Shown here: positions 724 to 27,017 of the stretch, one piece after another
Position numbering within the stretch: position 1 is the stretch's first letter
Layout of the letters: every line of letters starts with the position of its first letter
Assembly: GCA_944323165.1 (NCBI GenBank)
Contig: CALURK010000015.1
Span: 1-41,542 of the forward strand
Length of the DNA: 41,542 nucleotides
Direction of reading: 5' to 3'
Origin: Candidatus Gastranaerophilales bacterium
GTDB lineage: Bacteria > Cyanobacteriota > Vampirovibrionia > Gastranaerophilales > Gastranaerophilaceae
Program-made: the position numbers and the translations under genes
The notes under the pieces: model-generated
What the model was told of the DNA's origin: nothing
The model's database searches: none
Seen by the model: only the letters and a program-made list of their open reading frames with translations

Positions 724-1554
724 ATGTGGGAATATTCGGAGAAGGTTTTGGAGCACTATAGACATCCTAGAAATGTCGGCAAAATTGATGATGCTGATCT
801 GATAGGTGAAGCAGGTTCGCTTGCTTGTGGTGATTCCCTTAAATTATATATAAAATTAGACGGTAAAATAATAAAAGATGCCAAATTCCAAACTTTTGGC
901 TGCGGTTCCGCTGTTGCTTCATCAAGTATTTTGACTGAAATGATTATAGGAAAAACTCTTGAAGAAGCTAAAAAAATTACAAACAAGGATATCGCAGAAG
1001 AGTTAGGCGGGCTTCCGCAAGAAAAAATGCACTGCTCAGTTATGGGCCAGGAAGCTTTGGAAGATGCGCTTAAAAAATATTACGGTGAAGAAAAAATTGA
1101 AGAGGAAATTGGCGTTTCTCACAGTGGTGACAAGGTTGTATGTACTTGTTTTAATGTTACAGAAAACCAAATTTGGGAAGCTATAAAAGTTAACGGTTTA
1201 AAAACTGTTGAAGAGGTTACAAACTACACAAAAGCAGGGGGTGCTTGCGGTAGATGTAAAGGGCTTATTAAGGATATTATTGATACATACTATAAAAAAG
1301 AAGTAAAAAAAGAAGAATTAACTCCAACACAGAAAATTCTTAAAATAAGCAAAGTTATTGATCAGCAAATTTCTCCTCAGCTTCAAAAGGACGGTGGAGA
1401 TATTGAATTGGTTGATGTTGAAGGTAACAAGGTTAAGGTTAAATTAACCGGCATGTGCAGCGGATGTAAGAATGCTACAATGACTTTGAAGGCTTTTGTA
1501 GAGTCAGTTTTAAGAGATAAGGTAGATTCTTCTTTAGAGGTAGAACAAGTATGA
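724..1554 (+). CDS. nifU: NifU, three-domain Fe-S cluster scaffold
   Basis: NifU assembles [2Fe-2S]/[4Fe-4S] clusters from sulfur supplied by NifS and hands them to apoproteins. All three domains of the long form are present in 276 residues: an IscU-like N-terminus with Cys35, Cys60 and Cys104; a central BFD-like [2Fe-2S] domain with Cys140, Cys142, Cys175 and Cys178; and a C-terminal NifU domain with the CxxC Cys245/Cys248. Start: ATG at 724 behind GAGGGAAA. The last codons overlap nifS by ATGA, implying translational coupling. No nitrogenase gene is in the window. Full-length NifU also serves as a general Fe-S scaffold in anaerobes and epsilonproteobacteria, which is the likely role here. 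Confidence 0.95.
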   Translation: MWEYSEKVLEHYRHPRNVGKIDDADLIGEAGSLACGDSLKLYIKLDGKIIKDAKFQTFGCGSAVASSSILTEMIIGKTLEEAKKITNKDIAEELGGLPQEKMHCSVMGQEALEDALKKYYGEEKIEEEIGVSHSGDKVVCTCFNVTENQIWEAIKVNGLKTVEEVTNYTKAGGACGRCKGLIKDIIDTYYKKEVKKEELTPTQKILKISKVIDQQISPQLQKDGGDIELVDVEGNKVKVKLTGMCSGCKNATMTLKAFVESVLRDKVDSSLEVEQV

Positions 1555-23444: not shown

Positions 23445-24068
23445 CTAGAATAATTCTCCATATCTTAAAAGTTTATGCAATCGGCTTTTAGGTAAATACA
23501 TCATCCCAATTTGCGCCGGAATATCTGGAATTTTCTTGTTAATGCATTCCTCCATATAATTGTTTGCCGCCTCACTGGTAAACCTAAACCCGAGTTTATA
23601 AAAGAATAACGCGGGTGACGACTCCTTCACAATTGGTGATGAAAATGTCACGATTCTACCCTGAGCTTTATTATCAAACATCGCTTTTTCTGCCAGATTT
23701 TTAACCGCTTCCGTACCCAGTCCGCATCTCTGCTTTGGAGATTGGATATAGTCAATTATGTAACAGTTTTTGAGATACTTAATTTTTCGCGTTGTAGGAG
23801 GGTTATATTCCATCGCAGAAAAGAAATTTCCTCCGGTATTGTCAAGCTTTTCTTCTACGATGTCAACATAATCATCGTCAATTTCGCCAGGAATAATTAT
23901 ATTATCTCCTCTTTTAATTTTTTTGACACGAATTTGCGCCTTTTCCTTGAGAGGAATTGATTTAAACCCTAAAATCGGGGGCATACTAAAGCTGGAGACC
24001 GATGGCGTAGGTTTAGCTACTGCCATCTGAGGACGCATGTCCACAGTCGTCGTAATATTATTAATCAT
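23445..24068 (-). CDS. GNAT-family acetyltransferase-like protein
   Basis: A 207-residue protein. After a polar N-terminal extension of about 30 residues and the motif LGFK (33-36), the GNAT fold is recognisable from the acetyl-CoA loop Q113-R-C-G-L-G118 followed by a helix, and from the C-terminal SPALFFYKLGF at 151-161. Substrate is unknown. It is the first gene of a two-gene unit with the membrane-tail protein, which suggests the two act together at the membrane. The start at 24066-24068 is preceded by GGTTAGGTAGG, an acceptable ribosome site. The N-terminal low-complexity stretch ending in F-K resembles that of the divergent GT5-like protein. Confidence 0.72.
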   Translation of the reverse strand: MINNITTTVDMRPQMAVAKPTPSVSSFSMPPILGFKSIPLKEKAQIRVKKIKRGDNIIIPGEIDDDYVDIVEEKLDNTGGNFFSAMEYNPPTTRKIKYLKNCYIIDYIQSPKQRCGLGTEAVKNLAEKAMFDNKAQGRIVTFSSPIVKESSPALFFYKLGFRFTSEAANNYMEECINKKIPDIPAQIGMMYLPKSRLHKLLRYGELF

Positions 24069-24359
24069 ACCTACCTAACCTATATTTATCTAACCTTACT
24101 TATATAAAGTATTGCTGCGTGAAAAAATTGCCTAAATATAAAAATGCTCTAAAATATTTGTAACAAAAATTTACAATTAAACGCCCCAAATAACCCACCT
24201 GTAACTATTGAAAACGGAATGTTTTTTTGTTATTTTGTGTATAGAAATTACTTAACAAAAATTTACTTAACATTTTGTAATATTTGGGCGTAAAAAGTTA
24301 AATTTTTTTGTGTGTGGTTTTTTATATATATAGAAATTATGTGTGAAGGAGTTCATTTT
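24069..24359. promoter_or_regulatory. Divergent regulatory region with long-spaced repeats
   Basis: About 290 nt of AT-rich intergenic DNA between the GNAT gene (minus) and the GT5-like gene (plus). It holds a perfect 14-nt direct repeat TAACAAAAATTTAC at 24161-24174 and 24253-24266 (92 nt apart), and an inverted pair ACGCCCCAAATA (24181-24192) with TATTTGGGCGT (24281-24291). The nesting of one pair with the other suggests binding sites for a regulator that loops DNA, or remnants of a small inserted element. No small frame was found here. Confidence 0.4.
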
Positions 24360-27017
24360 ATGAAGATTAATGCAATTAGTGCTGATTATTCTGCCTTAAG
24401 AGTTCAACCAAAAGGAATTAAAGAAACTGAAACTGTAAATCAAGGGACAATTCCGAAGGGTTTTTCTGTAATTTCATTTAAGGGCGGTAATAAAGACCAT
24501 GTGCTTCATGTCGTTGCTGAATGTAAACCTTTTAATCAGGCAGGTGGTGTTGCTACTGTAGTGCAAGATTATCAAAAATTAAACAATGTGTCACCGACTG
24601 AAAAAGGAAAAGCTGTTTTTGTAACTCCTTTTTATAACGGTGTTGTTAAATATGAATGTTCAGACAAAGCATCTGATTTTCAAAAAATAAAAGTGGATTT
24701 ACCTCGTGTACCGGAAGGTTTGCCGGCAGATCACCCTCTTAAAGGTAAGGAAGGACAGCCTGTATATGTAAAGGCTGATTTATCAAAAACCACGCTGAAA
24801 GAAGCTTTGGAAGCCAGAAAGGACTATTGGTTACTGGAAGAAGTTGCTGATAAAAAAATGAAATGGGGTATGCAGGAAGATGCGCCTGTAAAATTGCTTA
24901 AAGTTGTTTCTGATGCTCAAGGTAAACCATTTAGCGATGAAGTTTTTATGATTTTCACAGAAGCAACAGCTTATGATCCAAAGCCTTATTCTGCAAATCA
25001 GTATTCATCTCAGGTAAAAGATATTGTAAGATCTTGGAATGGCGATCCTTATGCAAAATTTGATAAAGCAGTTGTTGAATGTATGGAAGATATTAGTAAA
25101 AAAATGGGAAATTTTGATCCAGCTACTGTTGTATGTTCAGATTCTCAGGCTGCTTATGTAACTCATTATATGGCTCAAAAAAATGCATCTGGTGTTGAGT
25201 ATTTCAAAGGTAAAAAACCAATGCAGATAGGGCATAATTTAGGCGATGGGTATATTGGAATTACTTCTCCAAGAAACATGGTTGTAAATTTAAATATGTT
25301 TACTCCAGAAGAGCTAAAAGCTTTAACTAATTCTGAAGAGTTAAGAAATGCTATAGTTACAGGCGGAAAAGATGAAGATGTATTTTTCAGTAAATTGTTA
25401 GAAAGTATAAATGCAAAAAATAAATGCTCTGCTATGAGTATTCCGGTTCACTATGGAAAAACCGGTTATTTGCAAACATTTGGTGTAGTTTCTCAAGGAT
25501 ATTTAGATGAAATTGTTAAAAACAAAGAGATTGCTCCTTTCTTATATGAAGATTTGCAAGATTTAAAGTCAAGAGGGGTTGCTGTGGGATTAACAAATCC
25601 TCATAATGTCAACAATACAGCATTTACTAAAGTTGGGTTGCCAGGATATAATTCAGCGCAAAAGATTAAACTTGCCAATGGTGCTGAAGAAACTATTGAA
25701 CCTTTAAAAATGTTTACAGAAAAGGATAAATCTACTGTTACATTGGAAGATTTAAGGAAATTAAAACGAGAAAATAAAATAAACTTCTTGAATAGATTTT
25801 CTACAAAATACGATGGAGCTCAACTTTGGAACGGTGGAAAGAAGAGTTGGGATGCAGCAGGCAGTGGCAGCTCTTTTATAAGAAAAGGTATGGCTGGAAA
25901 TATGCCGATTGTTCAATGCATTGATGTAGATAAATATATAGAAAAGTTGAAAAAAGGTGAAGATGTAAAAGTTGTAGTTTCTTGGGGACGTGGTGATTTC
26001 CAAAAGGCTTTTGATGAAGCACTTAACGGATTTAAAAATTATGTGATGAAAACAGGTGATAAGGATACTCTGTTAATTGTAGGCGGTGACTTAAATAATG
26101 ATAAAGTCGAAGGGCAAAAAATAAAAGATATTGCAGAGTTATTGGTAAAAGACCCTATTTTTAACGGTAGAGTTATGTTATTAGATGATTTTGCACCAGG
26201 TGAACCGATGGCATTGATGGCAGATGCATCTATTGCAACATCAAGAACTGCACCTTGTGAGTTAATTGATCTTGAAGCAAAAAAAATGTTATGTACTCCA
26301 ATTGTTGCAAATGGTCAAGGTTTAGGACAAAAGAACTTTGATCCAAGAATTGACAATGAAGCTAATATGGCTGATGCATTCAAAACTAAACATCAATTCT
26401 TTGATTCAAGAGATGATATGTTAAAATCTGCCTCAGAAGATTCAAAAAATAGGTTTAATAAAGTTTATAATAAAGTAAAAAATGATATATCAACAAAATA
26501 CAAAGTTGTAATTGGAGGCGATATTCCTCAAGAAAAACTGGAACTATTCTTGGAAGCTAATGATGATTACAGGAATGCACTAAGAAAATTGCGTGATGAA
26601 GTTATGGCGGATGATATAGCTGAATGCTTAGAGGAATGCCTTGTAAAACATCGTAATGATGATGTTGCTAAAACAATATTGAAAAATCAGGCTAATATAA
26701 AAACCGGTTGGGAAAATAACCAAGCTATAACTCGTTCCAGTGTTCCTACTGGAGAATTGTACAGACAACAGTTTAAAAAGGATGCTCACGATATTTCTCC
26801 AGATAAGGTTATTGGTCATAATATAAAGAAACCTGAAGGAGTTACAAGAGGCGGACATAGGACAATCCATTTCAACGGTAAAACCAAGAAAATTGCAGTA
26901 GCTGCTCTTGGGGTTGCTGCTCTCGCAGGACTTGGTATTACAGGGTATAAGTTTGGATGGTTCTCGCCGAAGTTTGAAGAAGAAAAGCCTGCCGGACATC
27001 TCTCTTGTGTAGGATAG
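24360..27017 (+). CDS. Membrane-anchored glycogen-synthase-like (GT5/GT-B) protein, divergent
   Basis: An 885-residue protein. After a polar leader and ISFKGG (38-43), the GT5 N-domain appears: HVVAECKPFNQAGGVATVV (50-68), then VVCSDSQAAYV and IGHNLGDGYIG, matching the GlgA acceptor region. The C-domain shows VSWGRGDFQKAFDEAL, keeping the Arg and Lys that contact donor phosphates, LIVGGD, and ATSRTAPCELIDLEA. Compared with E. coli GlgA, KTGG reads QAGG and EPCGL reads APCEL, so the ADP-glucose lysine and catalytic glutamate are changed. A hydrophobic segment (about 844-866) precedes a GYKFGWF tail. Start at 24360: GAAGGAG 8 nt upstream. It may be a glycosyltransferase of altered donor, or a non-catalytic relative. 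Confidence 0.75.
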   Translation: MKINAISADYSALRVQPKGIKETETVNQGTIPKGFSVISFKGGNKDHVLHVVAECKPFNQAGGVATVVQDYQKLNNVSPTEKGKAVFVTPFYNGVVKYECSDKASDFQKIKVDLPRVPEGLPADHPLKGKEGQPVYVKADLSKTTLKEALEARKDYWLLEEVADKKMKWGMQEDAPVKLLKVVSDAQGKPFSDEVFMIFTEATAYDPKPYSANQYSSQVKDIVRSWNGDPYAKFDKAVVECMEDISKKMGNFDPATVVCSDSQAAYVTHYMAQKNASGVEYFKGKKPMQIGHNLGDGYIGITSPRNMVVNLNMFTPEELKALTNSEELRNAIVTGGKDEDVFFSKLLESINAKNKCSAMSIPVHYGKTGYLQTFGVVSQGYLDEIVKNKEIAPFLYEDLQDLKSRGVAVGLTNPHNVNNTAFTKVGLPGYNSAQKIKLANGAEETIEPLKMFTEKDKSTVTLEDLRKLKRENKINFLNRFSTKYDGAQLWNGGKKSWDAAGSGSSFIRKGMAGNMPIVQCIDVDKYIEKLKKGEDVKVVVSWGRGDFQKAFDEALNGFKNYVMKTGDKDTLLIVGGDLNNDKVEGQKIKDIAELLVKDPIFNGRVMLLDDFAPGEPMALMADASIATSRTAPCELIDLEAKKMLCTPIVANGQGLGQKNFDPRIDNEANMADAFKTKHQFFDSRDDMLKSASEDSKNRFNKVYNKVKNDISTKYKVVIGGDIPQEKLELFLEANDDYRNALRKLRDEVMADDIAECLEECLVKHRNDDVAKTILKNQANIKTGWENNQAITRSSVPTGELYRQQFKKDAHDISPDKVIGHNIKKPEGVTRGGHRTIHFNGKTKKIAVAALGVAALAGLGITGYKFGWFSPKFEEEKPAGHLSCVG

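Follow-up and report, generated by a model that had tools for sequence, protein, structure and literature searches.

The closest described relatives of the protein analyzed here are the glycogen and starch synthases of family GT5, namely, GlgA of Escherichia coli (2qzs and its E377A mutant, 3cop) and starch synthase IV of Arabidopsis (AtSSIV; 6gne), whose crystal binds ADP and a glucan analogue. The E377A substitution affects the active site of E. coli GlgA and would be expected to cripple the enzyme. More distant are the retaining GT-B enzymes with an EX7E motif, such as MshA (3c4q) and BshA. In starch synthase structures, the Lys and Asp of the KxGGLxD motif contact the ribose and an Arg/Lys pair contacts the phosphates (PMC6086201). 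In the same structures, the catalytic Glu binds O3 of the donor, the backbone nitrogen of a Gly binds O4, and the His of the HN motif binds O6 (PMC6086201). A limited search of the open-access literature found no description of a system like the one reported below.

The window, a stretch of 41,542 nucleotides (contig CALURK010000015.1) from a Candidatus Gastranaerophilales genome of 1.93 Mb that is 99.8% complete, encodes P0001, a GT5-like, predicted tail-anchored protein of 885 residues. Its gene occupies 24360..27017 of the forward strand, as do all features below unless stated otherwise, with an ATG at 24360 behind a GGAG and a stop codon ending at 27017; the start is supported by relatives, which share the N-terminus MK/MR-I-N-A-I. 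P0001 matched the Pfam GT5 domain (PF08323) with an E value of 1.3e-7 and 32.0 bits against a gathering cutoff of 22.7, a membership that is marginal, since a six-frame search of the genome gave only 20.2 bits at this gene. An AF2 model built from 51 relatives had a pLDDT of 85.9 and a pTM of 0.83, with residues 41 to 827 folded and residues 1 to 40 and 828 to 885 disordered. The top Foldseek match of this model was 3cop. In a VIA comparison, model residues 44 to 810 matched E. coli GlgA (Z 24.1 over 463 residues) and AtSSIV (Z 24.2), with an rmsd of 2.9 to 3.3 Å over 463 to 475 residues, and both Rossmann-like domains of the GT-B fold aligned to GlgA over their full length. The EX7E enzymes were less similar in fold (Z of about 19) than the GT5 enzymes. 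The GlgA profile TIGR02095, however, gave P0001 only 27.9 bits against a cutoff of 328.45. By these profile and model comparisons, P0001 is a relative of GlgA and not a second GlgA under the usual definition.

P0001 is longer than the GlgA of its own genome by about 300 residues within the aligned part: the spacing grows by 77 residues between the GG and HN motifs, by 114 from HN to the Arg, by 11 from the Arg to the catalytic Glu position, and by 101 from there to the end. Part of the last gain is a C-terminal helical extension (about residues 684 to 778; 26409..26693), seen as helices in the model; GlgA lacks about 100 residues in this region. Beyond these internal gains, P0001 has a 46-residue leader and a 58-residue tail, neither of which has a counterpart in GlgA or AtSSIV. 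The leader (MKINAI...ISFKGGNK; 24360..24497) is disordered, with a pLDDT below 50 for residues 1 to 40, and precedes the folded GT5-like body (residues 47 to 827; 24498..26840). The tail contains a predicted membrane helix (residues 843 to 865; 26886..26954), in which one 19-residue window (845 to 863) reaches a mean hydropathy of 1.89; the model has helices at 843 to 864 with low pLDDT. Among 64 relatives, 34 have a tail that reaches a hydropathy of 1.4, and in roughly half the hydrophobicity is modest. The protein closes with a short segment (26955..27014) ending in GHLSCVG; genus relatives mostly end in LSxxG/V, an ending found in none of 924 other open reading frames examined. The first 50 residues of P0001 reach a hydropathy of 0.11 at most, so that no hydrophobic N-terminal signal was found, and the net charge is +4 before the C-terminal segment and -1 after it. 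From these two features the body is predicted to lie in the cytoplasm. The coordinates, GT5 fold, and hydrophobic C-terminal tail claimed in a preliminary description of this DNA are thus all upheld; the insertions that it put at about 250 residues are present, and their size was set slightly too low.

Active-site positions were compared in an alignment (A2) of 47 APCEL-type rows and 4 outgroup rows. P0001 retains the GG of KxGG, the PC of EPCGL, the HN motif (His292-Asn293; 25233..25238), and the phosphate-binding pair (Arg544-Gly-Asp-Phe-Gln-Lys549; 25989..26006), and E54, D261, H292, N293, N413, R544, K549, E634, and E639 are invariant in all 47 APCEL rows. In the segment APCELIDLE (residues 631 to 639; 26250..26276), Ala631 is equivalent to Glu377 of GlgA, Glu634 is equivalent to Gly380, and Glu639 is the second Glu of EX7E, so that P0001 has Ala where EX7E enzymes have their first Glu. 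The catalytic Glu position was Ala in 45 APCEL rows and Met in 2, and the +3 Gly position was Glu in 47 of 47; the loss and the gain therefore co-occur throughout the group and in none of the 4 outgroup rows, all of which keep the Glu and Gly of EPCGL and the Lys of KxGG. At the place of KxGG, P0001 reads QAGG (residues 60 to 63; 24537..24548). The Lys position (Gln60) varies among relatives (Q, K, N, S, T, A, or G), the Asp position of KxGGLxD is Thr in all 47 rows (Thr66 in P0001), and the glucan-touching Trp and His of HDWH are lost. On a tree of 71 bodies, whose deep branching order is unsure because of long branches, the Glu changes 3 times and the Lys 10 times, as if the Lys became dispensable following the change of the Glu. 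The dN/dS ratio was 0.03 to 0.15 between close bodies within body types, indicating strong purifying selection, which excludes a decaying pseudogene. Read from this alignment, the whole family shares the altered motif and conserves it.

The preliminary description had noted QAGG for KTGG, APCEL for EPCGL with loss of the catalytic Glu, and a retained Arg/Lys pair, all of which we found. Loss of the donor-binding Lys, which it had also claimed, holds for P0001 but not for the family, since the position varies and includes Lys. Whether another Lys and Glu stand at the catalytic positions has a divided answer: there is no replacement Lys, but a Glu has been gained (E634) and E639 is invariant.

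We consider an altered-donor transferase most likely, followed by a glucan-binding pseudoenzyme as its main rival. With a probability of roughly 40%, P0001 would be a membrane-anchored glycosyltransferase at the cytoplasmic face with an altered donor sugar and a specificity domain exchanged between species. Such an enzyme would be a lineage-specific derivative of GT5, held by its C-terminal helix at the cell membrane. Its donor is probably other than the glucose of ADP-glucose, because the Arg/Lys pair, HN, and acceptor-side residues are kept, whereas substitutions have removed the GlgA residues that bind the donor ribose and the 3-OH of glucose, and a Glu has appeared at the position whose backbone binds the 4-OH. 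As the backbone at +3 holds the donor 4-OH in starch synthases, it is natural to suspect a changed preference at the 4-OH; by alignment Glu634 would sit at this site, and the shift of the Glu could change the accepted sugar, for instance to a 4-epimer such as galactose. The preliminary description had offered two readings, a membrane-located transferase that uses a different donor and a structural relative. These are partly borne out, in that the GT5 fold, the altered donor contacts, and the predicted anchor are supported. If the relocated Glu works, it constitutes a natural experiment on a central residue of retaining GT-B enzymes. Alternatively, P0001 could be a GlgA relative that has lost catalysis, in effect a natural E377A variant, but can still bind alpha-glucan and a phosphate ligand and anchors glycogen or a glycogen enzyme at the membrane. 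The expected effect of E377A in E. coli GlgA makes such a loss possible, and the Ala at the catalytic position, the best structural match to that very mutant, the invariant acceptor-side Glu54 and Asp261, and the availability of activity from the genome's own GlgA fit this alternative. A dead protein does not, however, readily explain why the donor-side R544, K549, H292, and N293 are invariant or why a Glu was gained in step with the loss; the glucan-touching Trp and His are gone, and a scaffold gives no obvious call for exchanging whole domains between species. On this evidence we regard a pseudoenzyme as somewhat unlikely.

A second GT5-like protein of the Gastranaerophilales, paralogue II (L098 to L102 and L176), resembles P0001 in having a leader and the same pair of changes, Glu to Ala and Gly to Glu. 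It differs in retaining KTGG and the Asp, in reading APFEL, in lacking LSxxG at its C-terminus, and in its genomic setting, and it is distant from the APCEL group on the tree. In all 6 loci read, a gene for a GalE-like epimerase precedes that of paralogue II; the L102 epimerase, which is full length, scored above the NCBI galE cutoff, and in genus members an amylase-like gene comes after paralogue II. This arrangement would make it straightforward to probe the stereochemistry of the donor, but the galE link counts against the altered-donor reading of P0001 insofar as it belongs to a different gene. Class-wide matches to an APxEL DNA pattern in far families were set aside: among the 9 regions read, only L176 held a true GT5 protein, L171 was unrelated, and the others contained no such protein.

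The P0001 gene lies in a slot between a GloB-like metallo-hydrolase gene (glyoxalase II-like, PF00753; 27052..27660), which is adjacent by coordinates in about 39 of 58 genus genomes, and, on the other side, an acetyltransferase-like gene on the reverse strand (23445..24068), so classified by eye and without a Pfam or NCBIfam match. In an alignment of 35 upstream regions, about 110 bp before the start were conserved even between nonhomologous flanks. This promoter and 5' untranslated block (24250..24359) consists of a 30-bp box, a GTTAA-T-rich run, TATATATATAG, and a GAAGGAG ribosome site. The box, TTAACAAAAATTTACTTAACATTTTGTAAT (24252..24281), is built from a direct tandem repeat with a unit of about 15 bp. 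It occurred once in the P0001 genome and not in the reversed control, and over 58 genomes it gave 42 matches compared with 1 in the reversed control. It was found in 40 of the 58 genus genomes, nearly always as a single copy just upstream of a P0001-type gene by coordinates; 2 of the 42 matches (G055:C4 and G046:C79) had no tie to the gene. Consensus sigma-70 sites were not enriched (15 found, 14 expected). High expression was considered as an explanation for promoter conservation and rejected: the gene had a codon adaptation of 0.60, in the upper middle of the range and under RpsA, PFL, and GroEL. Small open reading frames between the P0001-type and GloB-like genes were likewise rejected as cognate partners, being present in few loci and of mixed kinds (GT2, radical-SAM-like by eye, and short leader proteins). 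Small leader proteins that begin with F-K/T-G-L/I-W/F-G and contain a YYPF motif were also seen repeatedly near P0001-type genes (L050:12703-13104 and L109:1138-1903, and upstream in L035 and L059).

Comparison of loci from related species suggested that the body does not share the history of its surroundings. Between L057 and L063, identity was 99% for the GloB-like neighbor, 100% for the leader, and 93% for the tail but 46% for the body; between L034 and L050, the values were 91%, 79%, and 98% compared with 39%. In close species pairs, DNA identity fell just inside the leader and recovered in the tail; the breakpoints match the boundaries of the folded part. L057 and L063 are identical from the N-terminus up to residue 49. 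The reverse case was observed for L036 and L038, in which the body DNA was mostly 93 to 100% identical (81 to 90% near the 3' end) and the flanks did not align. Across 292 pairs with a GloB identity above 0.70, GloB identity correlated at 0.48 with leader identity and at 0.42 with tail identity but at only 0.15 with body identity. Trees that forced flank sisters together in the body were rejected in AU tests (p < 1e-50). The slot can hold a far more divergent GT body, of EPCGI type with K/CAGG, which lies beside the GloB-like gene in L107 to L109; in L110, a body of the EPCGI type has the leader and tail, and the GloB-like gene is on another contig. The 30-bp box is upstream in 3 of these 4 loci. 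Because bodies of the EPCGI type stand in the same kind of leader and tail, 3 with the box and 3 beside GloB, this setting does not require the Glu shift. The slot can also be empty: in L115 (2060-2184) and L116 (3008-3119), gene-free gaps of 124 and 111 bp separate the GloB-like and acetyltransferase-like genes. From these comparisons, the folded body (about residues 47 to 827) seems to be a cassette swapped between related species while the front and tail stay constant. The conserved family motif, the interspecies exchange, and the four EPCG bodies framed by a similar leader and tail, at least 3 of them with the box, all go beyond the preliminary description.

Whole-domain exchange within a constant leader, tail, and promoter suggests that the altered-donor transferase decorates a membrane-linked or surface glycan on which variation is selected. 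An exported, cell-surface, interbacterial, or phage-conflict protein, with the leader as a targeting signal and a body varying in an arms race, would also account for the body exchange and the two empty sites; leader-like N-termini do precede other enzyme domains, and paralogue II passes the cutoff of Pfam GT4-conflict. We consider this unlikely, however. P0001 has no hydrophobic signal in its first 50 residues, its charge distribution, by the positive-inside rule, puts the body on the cytoplasmic side, and nucleotide sugars would not be expected to occur extracellularly. PADLOC and PHROGs gave no match beyond chance (in PADLOC, only a chance-level E value of 0.026 to a Csx19 fragment), and no viral relative was found among the viral contigs searched.

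Leader-like N-termini of the form M-[KQNR]-[IV]-x-x-[IV]-N ... F-x-[GA] were observed before HAD, GT2, CheR, epimerase, and M3 peptidase domains (L038:4672-5712, L060:3011-4018, L069:13465-14322, L102:4765-5823, L108:5675-7405, and window 23445-24068). In crude counts with weak statistics, a strict start pattern had 4 matches in the P0001 genome and 0 in the control, and an FxG-type motif occurred in 36 N-terminal compared with 26 internal stretches of 452. Such N-termini might be a lineage-specific targeting signal.

Since the genomes, where their origin was checked, are metagenome assemblies or uncultured, we considered whether the apparent exchange is an assembly artifact in which contigs of co-occurring species were joined at conserved ends. 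An exact shared run of 137 nucleotides at the 5' junction of L057 and L063 is compatible with such joining, but in other pairs the exact runs were short (36 to 78 nucleotides near the 5' junction and 17 to 80 at the 3' end). The independent assemblies of L050 and L052 agree with each other against L034, and the pattern repeats in many pairs, including bodies as distant as the EPCGI type. We therefore judge an artifact to be highly unlikely and the exchange pattern likely to be real.

The preliminary description had raised the question of a normal GlgA elsewhere in the genome, and one was found (G000:C8:83966-84691, 479 residues, KAGG and EPCGL), together with a GlgC above its cutoff. It is extremely improbable that P0001 is an ordinary ADP-glucose-using GlgA isozyme altered by drift in sequence only: the full GT5 fold and the phosphate pair are kept, but the TIGR02095 score is far below the cutoff, the catalytic Glu and the ribose-contacting Lys and Asp are consistently replaced, and with a true GlgA and GlgC present there is no need of a second glycogen synthase. 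On the most likely reading, P0001 is a sugar transferase whose specificity has changed and can be exchanged, rather than another glycogen synthase. A tentative possibility, doubtful as a whole, is that a single gene slot with its own promoter forms a polymorphic glycosylation system, in which a GT5 domain cassette is exchanged between species within a constant leader and membrane tail and, in some of the exchanged domains, the catalytic Glu has in effect moved three residues, switching the sugar specificity. If the body exchange is real, a single gene would give these little-known, mostly uncultured gut relatives of cyanobacteria a means of varying a glycan or an activity bound to the membrane, with a logic comparable to antigen-type switching in which the variable part is an enzyme domain. 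The P0001 genome also encodes a third GT-B-like protein (L130:1477-3288, on G000:C8) of 603 residues with a NPCGYEHYLAMKYG motif, whose gene adjoins groEL.
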